Assembly (NCBI RefSeq): GCF_003991905.1
Contig: NZ_RSCL01000020.1
Span: 1-64,000 of the forward strand
DNA length: 64,000 nt
DNA from: Dulcicalothrix desertica PCC 7102
GTDB lineage: Bacteria > Cyanobacteriota > Cyanobacteriia > Cyanobacteriales > Nostocaceae
Reading direction: 5' to 3'
Position 1 is the stretch's first letter; every line of letters starts with the position of its first letter. This document shows positions 54,408 through 64,000 of the stretch, piece after piece. The notes beneath the pieces are model-generated. The model did not search any database. It was not told where the DNA came from and saw nothing but the letters and a program-made list of their open reading frames with translations. A program made the position numbers and the translations under genes.

Positions 54408-54689
54408 TTATTGATTTGTTTCAGTAGAGTTACGTAAACGCATTAATTGACGACGCATTTGCGGAGAAGCCTTAAACTCGCTAACTTCATGAGCTTTAAC
54501 CGCCGTTTGCAAAGTCTGAATGAAATCATCTGACCCATCTACTAATGCTTCTAAAAGCACTTGTAGTAGTTGGTCGCGGTCGGAAAATAAACTTTTTTCC
54601 TCAACCAAACGAAACTTGAGATGGATTTCACATTCGTATACGCCAACTTCGACGCTATTAATTGGACGTGGTAACGGTTTCGAGTTCAT
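54408..54689 (-). CDS. Small regulator-like protein, resembles the Npun_R1517 heterocyst family
   Basis: A 93-residue soluble protein: MNSKPLPRPINSVEVGVYEC, IHLKFRLVEEKSLFSDRDQL, LQVLLEALVDGSDDF and KASPQMRRQLMRLRN. From memory this resembles a short conserved family of filamentous cyanobacteria annotated as Npun_R1517-type heterocyst-differentiation transcriptional regulators. I see no classical DNA-binding motif except a basic C-terminal helix. The 840-base region upstream is long for so small a gene and may hold developmental control sites. Confidence 0.6.
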   Translation of the reverse strand: MNSKPLPRPINSVEVGVYECEIHLKFRLVEEKSLFSDRDQLLQVLLEALVDGSDDFIQTLQTAVKAHEVSEFKASPQMRRQLMRLRNSTETNQ

Positions 54690-55532
54690 AATTTTCAGGA
54701 TTCCTTCGGTTGTTGGGTCAGTCGTTACTGGGGAGCAGCAGTTTAAATCGCTGCTATTAGCTATATCTTTTTTAAATCTCTCTAGTTTGAATTAAGAATT
54801 CTTGTTAGTCAATGCAATTTGTATCCCATGTTGCTCCTTTGTTTACTTTTTTTTGTACTTATACTCTTTTTTGTCTCTCAATTTACCCAGCTACCCCCAC
54901 TCCTATGCAATTTAGGTAAACCATAACTATTATTCAATTTTTATGATTCTATACAATGAAGTTTTTGTAAGAACTTGCTGGTGCTTTTTAAAGGTTTTTA
55001 CATCAACTTGATATTAACGTCAACAACAGTTTTTGTTTTTACCTTTAATGTGGTGTTTATACGTAAGTGATAACGCTGATTTTTTTTTGATAATGTCACG
55101 CTAGAGCCAACTGCATCATTACTACGTAAAAATACTAAATGTATGATTTGTTCATTGGAACGAAAATTGATAAGAATTGGGTAAAGAAACTAAGTGTTTT
55201 TGACAGTAAATAACTGCATCGGTATGAACGAAACTTTTTGTAGTCAGAAACCGGGTTTCTTTACCCACATCTTGTAATAAAAACAACGATTGTACATAGA
55301 AACCCGGTTTCTTAGGTTTCTAGCAGTAAATACTATTGCCGAATGACCACAACTAAAATACTCTAGTTCCCAAAAAAATAAAGAAATCAACACAAATCTA
55401 TTCTGTAGCCTCAAACACGAATGCTTTGCATCAACAAATATAGGGGCAAAGAGTTGGGGTGAGAGAGTCTACAATTATTTAGAGTGAAATTAACCCTTAA
55501 GAGAAAACATCCTCCCTATGGAAGACAACGCA
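54690..55532. other. Long AT-rich divergent intergenic region
   Basis: Lies between the divergently read small regulator gene and ndhM. It contains one composite palindromic element (55246-55312) and no supported reading frame. Promoters for both genes must lie here, but I cannot place them. Confidence 0.5.
55246..55312. repeat. Composite palindromic repeat element, 67 bp
   Basis: Starts with AGAAACCGGGTTTCT and ends with AGAAACCCGGTTTCT, the same end structure as the elements at 32269 and 52879, with an unrelated core. Confidence 0.85.
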
Positions 55533-55871
55533 ATGCTGCTTAAGTCAACAACCCGACACATCCGTATTTTTGCGGCAGAATTAGACGCATCTGGAGAATT
55601 GGTACCCAGCAGTCAAGTCTTAACGCTGGATGTTGACCCCGATAACGAATTTAATTGGAGCGAGGATGCCCTACAACAGGTTTATCGCAAATTCGACCAA
55701 TATGTCGAACAGAACGCAGGTAGTGACCTCACCGACTATAACCTCCGTCGCATCGGCTCAGATTTAGAACATTTAATCCGCTCACTTCTACAAAAAGGTG
55801 AAATAAGCTACAACCTGAATGCCCGTGTTGCTAACTACAGCATGGGTCTTCCCCGCGTTGAGGCACAATAG
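55533..55871 (+). CDS. ndhM: NAD(P)H-quinone oxidoreductase subunit M
   Basis: A 112-residue NdhM, an oxygenic-photosynthesis-specific subunit of the NDH-1 complex involved in cyclic electron flow and respiration in the thylakoid membrane. The sequence [60 protein letters not shown] and [11 protein letters not shown] is diagnostic. Homologues begin [11 protein letters not shown], so the ATG at 55533 was chosen over the one at 55518. It is monocistronic; an inverted repeat array follows the stop. Confidence 0.94.
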
Positions 55872-57607: not shown

Positions 57608-59908
57608 ATGGAACAAGATGCGGCAACGCTCCACTGCCCAAACGAACTTTGTCAGGCAGCCAACCCGCTTAAGCACAATTATTGCCAACAGTGTTCAACG
57701 CCTCTGCCGAAGCGTTATCTTTGGGCAGTCACAGAAGGAAAAAGTCTGGGAGTCTTGGGCAACCACATCGCCGATCGCTATTTAATTATTAGCCAGTTTG
57801 TTGTTCTAGATACTAGACCCGGACTAGTCCCACAGGTACCAGACACTGAATCGCTACAAAAGTTAAGACCCTATCTCCGCTTATTTCCTTACCGCTTACA
57901 CGTTCCTCAAGTGTATGGAATTATTCCTAAAAGCGATTCGTCCATGCCTTCAAACATTTTGCTTTTAGAGAAACCACCGCTTCATATAAACACAGAACTC
58001 GAAGTGCATTTGCATCAATCGTTGGACTCAGCATGGGGTGAGGCAACCTCAATGCGTCAGTTAAACTGGTTGTGGCAAATCGCACATATTTGGCAACCGT
58101 TGGCAAGTGAGGGAGTCGCGACTAGCTTGTTAGACCCTTTATTATTGCGACCCGAAGGCGGTTTAGTAAAAGTATTAAAATTACGCTCAGACCCTGAAGT
58201 TGCTCCTTCTATCTCGCAATTAGGTGATTTTTGGCGCGTGAATTTACTGCCAAACACAAAAAGTGCCATCAAAGAATTTTTTACCCAAGTTTGTGATGCT
58301 TTAATATCGGGTGAAATTCATTCTGGTGAGCAGTTAGTTGCTGTTTTAGACCAAGGACTAATCTCACTTGGCGCCGCAAGTGGGGATATGTCTCAGTATT
58401 CGGTAAAAATAGTTACAAACACTGATACAGGGCCAAGCCGTCAGAGAAATGAAGATGCATGTTATCCAGCAGCAGGCAACATAATTAGCAAGCCACCATC
58501 ACCTACAGCTTTAGCAATTGTTTGTGATGGTATTGGTGGACATGAGGGTGGTAATGTCGCCTCGAATATTGCCATAGATGTAATTCAACAGCAAGTTAGT
58601 CAGTTAGCATCAGTCCCTCGCGACCGTATCGACCCGACAGTTTTATTAGCTGACTTAGAAAAAGCGGCGGCGGCAGCAAACGATAAAATAGCTGTGCGAA
58701 ATGATAGCGAGGGTAGACAAGGGCGCCAACGGATGGGCACGACGTTGGTAATGGCATTACCTATTGCCCACGAAATGTATATCACTCATGTAGGTGATAG
58801 CCGTGCGTACTTAATTACACGCAAAGGGTGCTACCAAGTCACCCTAGATGATGATGTGGCATCACGAGAAGTACGACTCGGATATGCAGTTTACCGCGAT
58901 GCCGTTATGCAAGGCGCCAGTGGTTCTTTAGTGCAAGCTTTGGGAATGGGTAACAGTAACTCGCTGCATCCAACGGCTCAAAGGTTTGTGCTAGATGAAG
59001 ACTGTGTGTTTTTGTTATGTTCGGACGGTTTGAGCGACTTTGATAGAGTTGAACAATATTGGGAGACAGAAATATTACCGATTTTGACCGACGGTGTAGA
59101 CATTACAGAAGCAGTCAATAATTTAATCGAAATAGCTAATAAGCAAAATGGACACGATAACGTCACAATTGCACTGGTTCAGTATCAAATAAAATACACA
59201 GAACCAGAAAAAATACAGGTTCCAAATATTGCTGATTTATCCACGAATTATAAGTCAGGCAGCTATTCTACCACTAGTGCGCCGACTAATTTGGTTTCAG
59301 GACACAGAACACAAGTAATACCTGATACAGCCCAGGCAAAGAAACCGATACCTTTACATTTAATAGCACTGTTGGCTGTGGTGACAGTGGGAGGTTTAAT
59401 TGGGCTATTAATACAACAAATACTTTCTCGTCAAATTCAGCTTGGGACGACGATATCAACATCACCACCAGTTGCAACATCTCCAACTTCAGTAGAAAGA
59501 GTCGCGCCGACCAAAGGTTCGTTAATTAGCGTCATATCCCCAATTGCATTTAGTCGCAATAGCTCTTATCAAGTAGCTGGTAGTATTCCACAGAATACAA
59601 CTTTAGTGGTTATAGACTCAAAATCAACAACAGGCGCCGACCAAAGCGACTTACTGCATTTGCAGGTTTGTCAAGTACCCAAACAACAGGCAGAAGCACC
59701 CCCAGTTGCACAAAAAACAGTGCCAATTATACAAAGTGAAGAAATTTGGGTTCAAAAAGAAATACTTCAACCAAACAAGAACGTCTCAATATCCCAACCA
59801 GAGAAAAACGTTAATTCTCCATGTAATGCAATACTCAAGGAATCTACAAGCGGCAATATAGAAAAATCTCCATCGAAGACAGAACGTGCTCGTCCACGCA
59901 ATTTATAA
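57608..59908 (+). CDS. PP2C-family phosphatase with zinc ribbon, possible pseudokinase region and membrane helix
   Basis: A 766-residue protein. Residues 10-29 hold four Cys (10, 15, 26, 29), a zinc ribbon. Residues 45-250 resemble a degenerate kinase fold: RQLNWLWQIAHIWQPLASEG lies where a kinase has its catalytic-loop helix, but HRD and DFG are missing. The PP2C domain (265-530) has the metal Asp residues D307, D397, D473 and D517 (VCDGIGGHEGG, THVGDSRAYLI, LCSDGLSDF, GHDNVTIALV). A membrane helix (about 581-604) precedes a low-complexity tail. It should dephosphorylate Ser/Thr. The CHAT-FHA gene follows after 85 bases. Confidence 0.88.
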   Translation: MEQDAATLHCPNELCQAANPLKHNYCQQCSTPLPKRYLWAVTEGKSLGVLGNHIADRYLIISQFVVLDTRPGLVPQVPDTESLQKLRPYLRLFPYRLHVPQVYGIIPKSDSSMPSNILLLEKPPLHINTELEVHLHQSLDSAWGEATSMRQLNWLWQIAHIWQPLASEGVATSLLDPLLLRPEGGLVKVLKLRSDPEVAPSISQLGDFWRVNLLPNTKSAIKEFFTQVCDALISGEIHSGEQLVAVLDQGLISLGAASGDMSQYSVKIVTNTDTGPSRQRNEDACYPAAGNIISKPPSPTALAIVCDGIGGHEGGNVASNIAIDVIQQQVSQLASVPRDRIDPTVLLADLEKAAAAANDKIAVRNDSEGRQGRQRMGTTLVMALPIAHEMYITHVGDSRAYLITRKGCYQVTLDDDVASREVRLGYAVYRDAVMQGASGSLVQALGMGNSNSLHPTAQRFVLDEDCVFLLCSDGLSDFDRVEQYWETEILPILTDGVDITEAVNNLIEIANKQNGHDNVTIALVQYQIKYTEPEKIQVPNIADLSTNYKSGSYSTTSAPTNLVSGHRTQVIPDTAQAKKPIPLHLIALLAVVTVGGLIGLLIQQILSRQIQLGTTISTSPPVATSPTSVERVAPTKGSLISVISPIAFSRNSSYQVAGSIPQNTTLVVIDSKSTTGADQSDLLHLQVCQVPKQQAEAPPVAQKTVPIIQSEEIWVQKEILQPNKNVSISQPEKNVNSPCNAILKESTSGNIEKSPSKTERARPRNL

Positions 59909-59993
59909 CCACTCCGTCATATAAACTAGTAGCAAACCTAAAATATTTTTATGGCGAATTCGGTTAAAACTATAAAGAGATAGTCCCTAAAGA

Positions 59994-61589
59994 ATGCCCC
60001 TTGAAACCATGCCATCCTTAAACCTGGCGATAGCCCGTCTAGTTCATGCTGGCACCAACAATTTCGCTATTTGGGTGGTGCGCGCTCCTTACTCTAGTGG
60101 GCACGTTTTTCACGATTGCGTTTGGACACCCAACCTGACACAAGTATGGCAGGAATGGCAACAATTGTTTGCTCTTCACAGCAACCTCGATGTATCTCCC
60201 AACGCCAGCGAATCTGATAAAATTCAATCGAATTACTCCTTACCAATCGAATTACCCCAACCTGCCACAGGACAACCAACTAACTACGCTGGGCGCCTAA
60301 TGCAGTACTTTGGTAACTGTTTATGGCAATGGGTATTCGATGGACCAATTTTAAATAGCTTAGAACACAGTCGAGGAATCGCAGCAGGACAAGAAAAAAG
60401 TCTCCGTCTGCGTCTAGAAATACGCGATCCTTATTTGGTATCGGTACCTTGGGAAATTATGCAGCGTCCCGGTCAAGCTGCAATTTCTCTCAGTCAAAAC
60501 GTCATATTTAGCCGTACCACCAGCGACGTTGACAAATTACCATCTTTACGTAGCGATGCTGGGTTAAATGTATTGCTTGTGCTTGGCGATGACGAAAATC
60601 TTCAACTCGAAGCTGAAGCTGAACTTTTAAAGCGAACCTTAACACAAGGTACTGCCATTGGTAGCAACTCACGTGGTTACGCTCCATGTATCGTTACTAA
60701 ACTAATTCGCCCTACCCCCGAAGAATTAATCGCGGCATTAGAAACGCGGGCATATAACGTGTTTTTTTATGCTGGTCATGGCTTGCGTGGACCAGATGGC
60801 GGCATATTAAATCTCCACCCCAAAGCCACACTCAACGGCATTGAGTTGGCTCAGGTATTAACGCGCACAGGTGTAAAATTAGCTGTTTTTAATTCGTGTT
60901 GGGGCGCCCAACCTTTGGCAGTTAATCATCAACCAATACCTTACAGTAGCTTGGCAGAAGTATTAATACGACATGGCGTACCAGCAGTACTGGGAATGCG
61001 CGATGTCATTGCCGACCGTGAAAGTCTTAGCTTTATTCAAGCTTTCTCAGAAGCACTGCGCTCACGTCGAGCTATTGATGAAGCAGTAGCCGATGCTAGG
61101 CAAAAACTACTATCTTTATATAAATTTAACCAACCTGGTTGGACACTACCCGTTCTTTATTTACATCCAGAGTTTGACGGGCAATTAATTCGCAGCTTAG
61201 ACGAGAGCATTACCGAATTACCGACTTCTCTACCAGAATTTAGAAAAACATTCCCTGCTGCTTCACTGCGACTACTTACAGATGGAACAAAACAACTACT
61301 TCCAACTCCCATCACCCGTATTGGTCGCACCACAGACAACAACATCATCATTCCCGATTTATCAGTTTCTAGGCAACATGCTCAAATTATTTGTCGAGAT
61401 AGTTTTATTGACACAAAGTTAGAGCAAAGCTACTACTTACGTGATGATTCAACAGCAGGTACTTTAATATATCAGTCTGGAGCATGGCAACGAATTCATC
61501 ATGAAGAAGTACCACTAAGGTCAGGGACGCAATTAAAATTTGGCAGTAGCCGTGGTGACATTTGGGAGTTTATGATTGAAAACTCATAG
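59994..61589 (+). CDS. CHAT protease fused to a C-terminal FHA domain
   Basis: A 531-residue soluble protein. An N-terminal part (1-180) with LRLEIRDPYLVSVPWEIMQR leads to the CHAT caspase-like core (190-400) with the catalytic pair H262 (FFYAGHG) and C302 (FNSCWG), and GVPAVLGMRDVI. An FHA domain (424-530) has TRIGRTTDNNIIIPDLSVSR and QH at 461-462, residues that bind phosphothreonine. CHAT enzymes are caspase relatives used in regulated proteolysis, including defence. The fusion suggests control by phosphorylation, next to a PP2C phosphatase. The start could also be Met6. Confidence 0.88.
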   Translation: MPLETMPSLNLAIARLVHAGTNNFAIWVVRAPYSSGHVFHDCVWTPNLTQVWQEWQQLFALHSNLDVSPNASESDKIQSNYSLPIELPQPATGQPTNYAGRLMQYFGNCLWQWVFDGPILNSLEHSRGIAAGQEKSLRLRLEIRDPYLVSVPWEIMQRPGQAAISLSQNVIFSRTTSDVDKLPSLRSDAGLNVLLVLGDDENLQLEAEAELLKRTLTQGTAIGSNSRGYAPCIVTKLIRPTPEELIAALETRAYNVFFYAGHGLRGPDGGILNLHPKATLNGIELAQVLTRTGVKLAVFNSCWGAQPLAVNHQPIPYSSLAEVLIRHGVPAVLGMRDVIADRESLSFIQAFSEALRSRRAIDEAVADARQKLLSLYKFNQPGWTLPVLYLHPEFDGQLIRSLDESITELPTSLPEFRKTFPAASLRLLTDGTKQLLPTPITRIGRTTDNNIIIPDLSVSRQHAQIICRDSFIDTKLEQSYYLRDDSTAGTLIYQSGAWQRIHHEEVPLRSGTQLKFGSSRGDIWEFMIENS

Positions 61590-61807
61590 ACGATTTGTCA
61601 AAAATCCATGAAATTACTCTTGACATAATTAGATTTTTATTTAAAACATATTATTTCAACGTATTATTCTGTGAGTATCACTTAAATATTTTGTATCACA
61701 CAAAAACAATACGCGATCATTTTATTCGTTTTGCGGAAACCAGAGCGCTTATGCTGTAGCTCATGGTACACAAACAAATTAAACCATCCAATAAGGAAAG
61801 CCTAGAA

Positions 61808-62446
61808 ATGACTCACACAAAAAACGACGCACTTAACAGTTCAGAGTTCCAACCATCTGCAATTCACCTAGAGTTGCTCGAAGCATTACTCGACGACGAA
61901 GCAACATATCCCTGGAACCCAGCATCTCCCGAATCAGAAGATTTCTTTCATCAATGTGACGCGCATTTTGCCATTGATGAACTTCTCGAAGTTGATTCCG
62001 GGCGCCAAGAAGCTTTTTACAGCCATCTTGATACTTTGTGGTCTAACACACCAACCTTGCAATCTCAATGTAACACACCTGTAGTATCAATATCAAAACT
62101 TAAAGAAAGTTTACAATCAGCGATTTCTTCCCGGATTCCTCACGAATGGATAGAAAAGATAGCACAAAAAGCAAGTGATTTATTTAATTCGCCAATGTCA
62201 ATAGCAGACCAATTAGTAGAAATTGCCGCATCTGTAGTGCCCGCTTTAGGTGCTGATGATTTATCTGTACTAGCGCGTCCATATGCGTATGCAATGCGTA
62301 GCGAAACAACTACATTAGAATCAACACTTAAAAAAGTGGGTGGACACGAATGGAATAATTTATCAGAAATCGAGCAAGCACGGGTGAGTGTAGCAGTAGC
62401 TTACTACGCACTCCAACAACTCAAAAATTCTCAAGCAATAGACTAA
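61808..62446 (+). CDS. Hypothetical protein downstream of the CHAT-FHA gene
   Basis: A 212-residue soluble protein I do not recognise. The N-terminal half (1-115) is acidic: LLEALLDDEATYPWNPASPE, SEDFFHQCDAHFAIDELLEV. The C-terminal half (120-212) is helical: WIEKIAQKASDLFNSPMSIA, DQLVEIAASVVPALGADDLS, and RVSVAVAYYALQQLKN. No signal, membrane helix or enzyme motif. The start at 61808 has AAGGAAAG upstream and is preferred to 61763. A conserved place after a CHAT protease would make it a substrate, inhibitor or adaptor candidate; that is inference. Confidence 0.7.
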   Translation: MTHTKNDALNSSEFQPSAIHLELLEALLDDEATYPWNPASPESEDFFHQCDAHFAIDELLEVDSGRQEAFYSHLDTLWSNTPTLQSQCNTPVVSISKLKESLQSAISSRIPHEWIEKIAQKASDLFNSPMSIADQLVEIAASVVPALGADDLSVLARPYAYAMRSETTTLESTLKKVGGHEWNNLSEIEQARVSVAVAYYALQQLKNSQAID

Positions 62447-62632
62447 GTGCTTGGTAAAAAAGATGTGATAAAACGCACTCTAGTATCAAAAGACCATTTC
62501 ACTATTTTAAATCTAACTATAGGCTCTTGTTGTGTAATAACCATCTATCAAAAGATAGAAATAAAGTGAAAGCAAAACAGTGAAGTACTGCAATTCAGGT
62601 TATAAGTGAGTCATATGAATATCAAAATAAAA

Positions 62633-62668
62633 AGTAACCGGGGAAAACCCAGTTGCTTTTTTATTTTC
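62633..62668. terminator. Bidirectional rho-independent terminator
   Basis: AGTAACCGGGG pairs with CCCAGTTGCT across AAAA, followed by TTTTTTATTTT on the plus strand and, on the other strand, by CTTTTTATTTT. It lies after the rightward hypothetical gene and directly next to the stop of the leftward FHA-PrsW gene, so it can end both transcripts. Confidence 0.8.
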
Positions 62669-64000
62669 GTTCTAAAAAACGTGTAGCAAAATTTTGTGAA
62701 CGGTTTGGAGAAAGAGCGCGTGCTTTAAGAATAGCAGCCATCAAAAAGGCGTATGAAATTACACCAACAACAACTAATAACAAAGCATTAATAGCTCCAG
62801 AAGCATTCCATAAAGCATGAAGCGCGGCCGCAGTTAAGTAACCCACAATTAAAATTCGCACACCCCTACTTGGTTTAAGAACAGCCAAACCAATGAAATA
62901 TCCTAGATAACCGCTATAAGCCATATGACCAGCGACTAATCCTAATATTCGGGGAATTAAAAGCTGTAACCCTACCAACTGCCCAGCATCGGCGCCCGAT
63001 TGTTGTGCAACACTTAATGTAATTTGTGGCACATATTGACCTAGTGTTTCCAACAGAGTAAAACCGACCGCCGAAGCAGTGCCAAGTAGAATACCATCAA
63101 GAGGTTCAGAGACACCAAGTCGTTCACGCCAAGGAGAAGGAAGCGTTCTTGATATTAAAAATATACCCAAAACAGGCAACGCTTTGAGCAATTCTTCCAT
63201 TAACCCGGCGCCAAAAAACATCCGCACAAGTAATTCAGTTAAGGTAATTTCCTGATTTTCTCTGGGTAAATTACCTGGTAGAACAACACGGAATATATAA
63301 ATAAATAAATCTAAAATAGGACTTTTTAAAAGTATTGCCGTCCCCAAAGCAGAAGCGAGTAATATCCACCAAGGTTTGTGCTTGCCACACAAACGATAAA
63401 TAAAATAATATGCAGCAGAAGCAATATAAGTACCAACAATAACTTGATTAGCTTGCGGCGAACCAACCGTAGCAAACATTAACACTACAAATACAACAGT
63501 TAAGATACCAGGGATTAAAAAAGCTTTGCTAGTTAAATCCTTTCCGGTTGAGATAATTGGGAACAACTGTGTAAAGCTTACAGAATCTATTTGTGTAGGC
63601 GCCTCATATTTGCTTGCGGGGGTAAGTGAAGTAGCGGCAGCGGAATTAATAGCAGTTTGTTGATGAGCATTATTTTCATATTCAAACTGAAATATAGGTC
63701 CATCCTGTGCCAAAGAAATGCGGTCTCCAGAATGTAACTCTTGACAACCCTCAAGACGCTGACCATTAAGGTAAGTACCATTAGCACTACTAAGGTCACA
63801 AATCACCCAACTGCATCGACCATCAGGGGAAGGAGAAATGGAACGAACAACCGCATGGCGCCGTGATACCATCCGAAACTTAATGGCATCCAGAGCAATT
63901 TGACAACCAGGGTCGCGTCCAATTACCACCTCTCGATTTTTGAGTAGGGCATAATTCGACTCAGACCCACTAGGTACTCCGTTACCAGACACTAGCCGCA
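62661..64000 (-). CDS. FHA domain fused to PrsW-type intramembrane protease (5' end cut by window)
   Basis: At least 443 residues. Counting from the GTG at 63992, an FHA domain (10-105) has VVIGRDPGCQIALDA, SRRHAVVR and SSANGTYLNG. Then about eight membrane helices carry PrsW marks: EELLK (266-270), E315 in FTLLE, H356 in AGHMAYSGYLG and H392 in LHALWN. PrsW-like proteases cut within membranes; in Bacillus PrsW degrades an anti-sigma factor. The frame stays open upstream to the window edge (RLV before the GTG), which fits FHA starts, so the true start is probably outside. It faces the CHAT-FHA module. Confidence 0.85.
   Translation of the reverse strand, partial: RLVSGNGVPSGSESNYALLKNREVVIGRDPGCQIALDAIKFRMVSRRHAVVRSISPSPDGRCSWVICDLSSANGTYLNGQRLEGCQELHSGDRISLAQDGPIFQFEYENNAHQQTAINSAAATSLTPASKYEAPTQIDSVSFTQLFPIISTGKDLTSKAFLIPGILTVVFVVLMFATVGSPQANQVIVGTYIASAAYYFIYRLCGKHKPWWILLASALGTAILLKSPILDLFIYIFRVVLPGNLPRENQEITLTELLVRMFFGAGLMEELLKALPVLGIFLISRTLPSPWRERLGVSEPLDGILLGTASAVGFTLLETLGQYVPQITLSVAQQSGADAGQLVGLQLLIPRILGLVAGHMAYSGYLGYFIGLAVLKPSRGVRILIVGYLTAAALHALWNASGAINALLLVVVGVISYAFLMAAILKARALSPNRSQNFATRFLERK

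Follow-up and report, generated by a model that had tools for sequence, protein, structure and literature searches.

A conserved cyanobacterial locus resembling the HetF-PatU pair, with FHA domains and a PP2C phosphatase

Introduction

PatU3 of Anabaena sp. PCC 7120 can be cleaved by HetF, which limits this negative regulator, according to an excerpt of PMC12288457. This article describes a locus with a likeness to that pair. It lies at the right end of a stretch of 64,000 nucleotides (the window, positions 1 to 64,000 of contig NZ_RSCL01000020.1) from the cyanobacterium Dulcicalothrix desertica PCC 7102, which has a genome of 11.4 Mb. Four genes make up the locus. They encode a PP2C phosphatase, a CHAT protease with an FHA domain (CHAT-FHA), a PatU-like protein here called U, and a PrsW protease with an FHA domain (FHA-PrsW).

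The likeness to HetF and PatU3 consists of a protease from the same CHAT clade, a partner with a related C-terminal region, and the co-occurrence of the two as a pair. In contrast to HetF-PatU3, the protease carries an FHA domain, U sits with PP2C and FHA-PrsW rather than with hetZ, and cleavage of U is a prediction.

Another described system is the FHA switch of OdhI and GarA, which is under PknG or PknB and PstP and works by a lock mechanism. The locus shares with it a conserved threonine in the linker that precedes an FHA domain, with a PP2C alongside. It differs in that the FHA domain is fused to a protease and the kinase-like part has no catalytic motifs; locking is a proposal here. Scores against the OdhI family (NF041660) are 15.8 and 30.1, below the cut-off of 200, and the FHA domain alone is held in common. 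In the open-licence literature, no paper was found that joins the CHAT domain, the FHA domain and cyanobacteria, and no account of the module.

Conservation of the Locus

An earlier note, made from the sequence of the window, had listed four neighbouring genes, and all four are present. PP2C, CHAT-FHA and U lie on the + strand. FHA-PrsW lies on the - strand, convergent toward U, and starts at 64037, 37 bases past the window end. The domain matches of PP2C, CHAT-FHA and FHA-PrsW pass the Pfam cut-offs.

The four genes form an old, conserved locus. Of 426 places encoding a relative of CHAT-FHA, the best 80 were read (the named loci), the first of them in Calothrix sp. PCC 7716, where CHAT-FHA is 99% identical. 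In 75 of these 80, PP2C precedes CHAT-FHA by at most 1.5 kb; in 79, U follows it within the same distance, and in 72 FHA-PrsW is convergent on U. Among the 73 loci whose flanks reach 3 kb or more upstream and 4.5 kb or more downstream, the numbers are 70, 72 and 68. These and all later locus and co-occurrence counts are raw, uncorrected for phylogeny.

Two wider sets were also used, an order sample of 291 genomes and a class sample of 252 genomes. The thresholds in the order sample were E 0.001 for U and PatU, E 1e-60 for CHAT-FHA and FHA-PrsW, and a strict, query-dependent E 1e-100 for HetF. U is present in 205 genomes of the order sample, CHAT-FHA in 194 and FHA-PrsW in 146. Both places are known for U and CHAT-FHA in 128 genomes: CHAT-FHA is followed by U in 94, at a spacing of 89 to 549 bases, and the order is inverted with the genes still adjacent in 8, all from one family. 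The two are on different contigs in 23 and far apart in 3. Where the places of FHA-PrsW and U are both known (120 genomes), the two are convergent in 71; FHA-PrsW is the most loosely linked of the four genes.

The U profile matches 121 of the 252 genomes of the class sample. Fifteen loci outside the order were picked by hand from genomes that bear U. All four genes stand in order in 5 of these; CHAT-FHA adjoins U in 9, one of them clipped by a contig end, and U occurs without CHAT-FHA in 6. The conservation of the neighbourhood, which the earlier note had made the first check of its idea, is thus borne out in the named loci, in the order sample and in other orders.

A Relative of HetF with an FHA Domain

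The CHAT-FHA gene (59994..61589, +) encodes 531 amino acids. Its CHAT domain (PF12770, residues 107-376, 60312..61121, +) is matched at 70.5 bits, against a Pfam cut-off of 24. The predicted catalytic residues, His262 (60777..60779, +) and Cys302 (60897..60899, +), are each retained in 73 of 73 sequences, and the conservation on which the earlier note had made its idea depend is therefore present. The FHA domain follows (PF00498, residues 441-517, 61314..61544, +; 53.1 bits), with R445 and S459 in 73/73 and H462 in 72/73. The linker before it contains the motif DESITELP (61200..61223, +), in which T407 is kept in 72/73 and P410 in 73/73. By eye, T-x-L/I-P is also seen in seven of eight CHAT-FHA linkers from other orders.

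The best NCBIfam match of CHAT-FHA is HetF (NF045509, E 1.3e-46), with a score of 159.3 that is far below the cut-off of 1200. A true HetF is encoded elsewhere in the same genome (1416.8 bits, same cut-off). The relation was placed on a tree of 61 CHAT domains: 16 from CHAT-FHA, 20 from HetF, and 25 of the 27 other CHAT matches of the genome. CHAT-FHA and HetF (36 rows) form one clade with support 100/100, apart from the 25 other CHATs, and within it are sister groups, supported at 84/98 and 100/99 respectively; the tree is rooted at its midpoint, and long branches among the remaining CHATs drew a warning from the tool. By these comparisons CHAT-FHA is judged to be a paralogue of HetF. The two differ in layout. 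HetF has a C-terminal part with transmembrane (TM) and tetratricopeptide repeat (TPR) segments, as described in an excerpt of PMC8406250, whereas the C-terminal end of CHAT-FHA is the FHA domain.

Further copies of parts of this protein exist. At the end of contig C11 of the same genome (L010:7737-8894) there is a second copy of the FHA part, 81% identical to residues 396-530 of CHAT-FHA and with no CHAT part. Calothrix sp. NIES-4105 has a second CHAT-FHA copy in a frame of 709 amino acids (L098:9446-11575), with a different N-terminus and similar-looking neighbours.

A Distant Relative of PatU

Gene U (61808..62446, +) encodes 212 amino acids. It has no Pfam match over the cut-off and none in NCBIfam or PADLOC at E 0.1. 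When 29 U homologues were scanned with Pfam and NCBIfam, matches were confined to one member each. A search of PDB sequences with the U profile gave a designed helical bundle at best (E 0.01), and Foldseek with the U model found nothing below E 0.001 (best 0.094). The earlier note had called U a protein of no known family; profile comparison changes this and relates U to PatU.

Searched against its own genome, the profile of 29 homologues finds U and one further place, at E 0.145, a match that alone would mean little. This place is a frame of 277 amino acids behind a gene that passes the HetZ cut-off (608.6, cut-off 550). Gene clusters of hetZ and patU have been described (excerpts of PMC12288457 and PMC11298460), and the frame takes its PatU name from its place after hetZ, because no library named it. 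PatU sits directly after hetZ, whereas U comes after CHAT-FHA, and it is a different gene that follows hetZ.

Profiles of 77 U and 50 PatU sequences were then compared. With PatU as query the score is 46.7 (Prob 83.4, E 8.4e-6) over 97 columns. Controls scored lower: 150 block shuffles reached at most 24.6, 150 column shuffles at most 26.4, and reversed profiles 20.6 and 24.4. Control families numbered 18, of which 14 had a fitting length and one was U itself; the remaining 13 reached a Prob of at most 0.8 against U. U thus appears to be a distant paralogue of PatU, through its C-terminal region (62123..62437, +).

Both families also have (Y/F)PW upstream of the matched region. In U it is YPW (61907..61915, +), with Y in 98/98, P in 97/98 and W in 98/98, and its counterpart in PatU is FPW in 50/50. 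An arginine of U that is invariant in 98/98 (R179 in the numbering of a frame of 227 amino acids; 62297..62299, +) aligns with an arginine retained in 43 of 50 PatU sequences. That R179 may be the cut site is a guess.

The genome holds a second PatU match, a frame of 284 amino acids on contig C9 (L278:1510-2364, E 2.6e-11). It was set aside; only the start of the frame matches PatU, at residues 18-66, and the rest differs.

Two Pairs in the Same Genomes

Among the 291 genomes of the order sample, 187 have both U and CHAT-FHA (phi 0.80), and PatU and HetF are linked to a similar degree (phi 0.79). Across the pairs the values are lower: 0.57 for U and HetF, 0.58 for CHAT-FHA and HetF, 0.65 for U and PatU, and 0.69 for CHAT-FHA and PatU. 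In addition, 28 genomes have U and CHAT-FHA without PatU and HetF at the limits used. For these reasons the pair of U and CHAT-FHA seems to stand on its own.

The Phosphatase and the Membrane Protease

The PP2C gene (57608..59908, +) encodes 766 amino acids, arranged as a zinc ribbon, a kinase-like region, the PP2C domain, a tail and a membrane helix. The zinc-ribbon cysteines (residues 10, 15, 26 and 29; 57635..57694, +) are invariant in 44 sequences, and the ribbon has weak Pfam matches in 25 of 25 members. The kinase-like region (residues 36-256, 57713..58375, +) is suggested by a structure model and structural matches and has no HRD or DFG. The top Foldseek match of the modelled N-terminus is PknG; sequence searches gave no kinase support, and a kinase profile run against this N-terminus found no match. 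The region may be a pseudokinase. The catalytic domain (residues 272-525, 58421..59182, +) has motifs that are nearly invariant in 68 sequences. The tail contains TQVIP (T568-P572, 59309..59323, +), in which T568 is kept in 64/68 and is a candidate phosphothreonine. The tail pattern is missing in five loci that do not have CHAT-FHA, two of which show a near form by eye. A hydrophobic stretch after it (residues 582-606, 59351..59425, +) is, judged by eye, a likely transmembrane helix.

FHA-PrsW has 458 amino acids (62661..64000 within the window, -). Its FHA domain (63711..63929, -; 62.9 bits) has invariant GR and SRRH motifs in 40 sequences. Its PrsW intramembrane protease domain (PF13367, 62730..63377, -; 127.6 bits, cut-off 23.5) has the motifs MEELLK, FTLLE, HMAYSG and HALWN, nearly invariant in the same number. 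Domain and motifs are those of the PrsW family, and the N-terminal FHA domain is what sets the protein apart; its score against the PrsW equivalog (NF033739) is 22.6, below the cut-off of 225. The same genome has a second FHA-PrsW gene (C17:128173-129480, +), 51% identical over residues 8-456.

Possible Counterparts in Anabaena

Locus numbers and strands suggest that the counterparts in Anabaena sp. PCC 7120 are prpJ (all1731), all1730, all1729 and alr1728, two of which have published heterocyst phenotypes. An excerpt of PMC6161253 gives prpJ as all1731 and reports that a prpJ mutant makes no major heterocyst glycolipid and does not fix nitrogen under oxic conditions; a title cited there places PrpJ, a PP2C, on the plasma membrane. 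The PP2C of the window likewise has a likely membrane helix and the numbering fits, the identity being taken from locus numbers only. Elsewhere, alr1728 is described as a Fox gene of unknown function that is up upon FurA overexpression (excerpt of PMC4005646), and all1729 belongs to a ten-gene core set of filamentous species together with HetR, PatU3 and HetZ (excerpt of PMC2821919). The literature found does not mention all1730, and no paper was found that gives the locus tag of ndhM (all1732) to anchor the numbering.

Two genes upstream of PP2C in the window are also seen in the loci of six relatives. One, of 93 amino acids (54408-54689, -), may by its number be the counterpart of asr1734. 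The other (55518-55871, +) is here presumed to be NdhM-like and named so. Rfam, at gathering scores, and ARAGORN gave no match within the window.

Beyond the window lie BREX genes resembling BrxA, BrxB and BrxC (L009:11853-15384; contig C20, 68852-72383). The BrxC-like frame, of 725 amino acids, matches the model over roughly its first 680 positions only, out of 1180. In a near-identical strain (L094), just a piece of 136 amino acids with the same start is seen.

Proposed Mechanism and Alternatives

The locus may be a second edition of the HetF-PatU pair, coupled to phosphorylation, in which CHAT-FHA cuts U, a reading whose chances are about evenly balanced. Because HetF cleaves PatU3, CHAT-FHA most likely cleaves U or acts through it. 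In the proposed mechanism, CHAT-FHA is a HetF paralogue in which an FHA phosphothreonine reader replaces the C-terminal part of HetF. It would cut U as HetF cuts PatU3, and this would determine how much of a regulator of cell differentiation, division or envelope is present, or in which state. Threonines of the module would be phosphorylated by a Hanks-type kinase encoded elsewhere in the genome, with T407 and T568 as the best candidates. Reading of these by the FHA domain would either lock the protease in cis or dock it at the membrane, and the signal would be undone by the PP2C protein. Through FHA-PrsW, the same signal would have a second output, embedded in the membrane. Such phosphorylation control of the module is plausible.

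A broader version is tentative and rather doubtful. It describes a phosphothreonine-gated proteolysis cascade older than heterocysts, in which a membrane pseudokinase-PP2C is joined to a HetF-type FHA protease that cuts a PatU-type regulator, with an FHA intramembrane protease as second arm. The cascade would control differentiation in parallel to HetF-PatU.

Several observations weigh against the reading of the locus as a second edition of the pair. At E 1e-60, 18 of the 205 genomes with U do not have CHAT-FHA, while the reverse holds in 7 of 194. Eight loci were read from genomes with only one of the two. Three of them (L194, L195, L196) retain PP2C, U and PrsW, and 40 to 48 residues from the end of CHAT-FHA are left there; two more (L200, L201) keep PP2C, U and PrsW with no CHAT-FHA match; the persistence of U after this loss implies that U has work without the CHAT-FHA protease. 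The FHA domain of CHAT-FHA does not have the usual Asn, position 488 being Tyr in 65/73. The relation of U to PatU is itself known from sequence profiles alone: the U model reaches a middling pLDDT of 71.5, and a BLAST of single sequences gives nothing (E 15). With U as query the profile score falls to 41.6 (Prob 68.6, E 4.6e-5), and a U profile built from the named loci only (Nostocales) is PatU's best of 14, yet at Prob 18.8 and E 0.0013.

The other three loci of the eight are of different kinds. The CHAT-FHA frame is broken in one (L199:7820-9545), another (L197) has PP2C and PrsW only, and the last (L198) has only U, near a contig end with a run of N. The PP2C frame is also broken in L196 (L196:4370-6642). 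Either break may be decay or an assembly error.

U could instead be a regulatory partner, either an inhibitor or adaptor of CHAT-FHA or a protein that acts with it on a shared target, while the protease cuts something else. Adjacency and co-occurrence would suit any tight partner, and U outlives CHAT-FHA in some genomes. The parallel pair, however, is a protease and its substrate (excerpt of PMC12288457), and the partner explanation is held to be somewhat unlikely. It is improbable that the genes are merely old neighbours with separate jobs, with no action of PP2C and FHA-PrsW on CHAT-FHA and U. The loose placing of FHA-PrsW speaks for this: of the 120 genomes, 48 have it apart from U (39 on another contig, 9 far off), it occurs in 10 genomes without U, and it is missing at E 1e-60 from 69 genomes with U. 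Upstream neighbours, the NdhM-like gene among them, are likewise kept nearby. Yet CHAT-FHA and U stay adjacent in the 8 genomes with inverted order, the four-gene order recurs in other orders, and three of the genes have domains linked to phosphorylation.

A conflict or cell-suicide module, with the CHAT protease as the killing effector, is by far the least probable. Caspase-like proteases do act as effectors of conflict systems (excerpt of PMC7159879), and BREX-like genes lie beyond the window. However, none of the four proteins has a PADLOC match at E 0.1, and CHAT-FHA gives a single match in 193 of 194 genomes of the order sample at E 1e-60 and has conserved neighbours. Its nearest relative is HetF, and among the loci of six relatives a BREX-like piece is seen by eye only in the near-identical strain.

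The earlier note had proposed a protease locus switched by phosphorylation, perhaps in stress, cell death or membrane signalling. The genes are indeed located together and their catalytic and reader motifs are intact. A linked kinase is not supported: a Ser/Thr kinase was to be looked for just past the right end, and no kinase match occurs in the 12 kb beyond the window, while the genome has 98. Nothing found points to cell death or stress, and differentiation and division are the processes in which the closest relatives, HetF and PatU, have their roles. The idea is sharpened to a paralogue pair of HetF and PatU with a phospho-reader, with the cutting of U and the phospho-switch as its predictions.

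Significance

HetF, a caspase-like protease of bacteria, and its target PatU3 have ties to cell fate. If CHAT-FHA and U are a second such pair, the HetF-PatU design would have undergone an early duplication in cyanobacteria and been linked with Ser/Thr phosphorylation. Should the locus numbers be correct, the locus would also unite three Anabaena genes that have been reported separately: prpJ, alr1728 and all1729.

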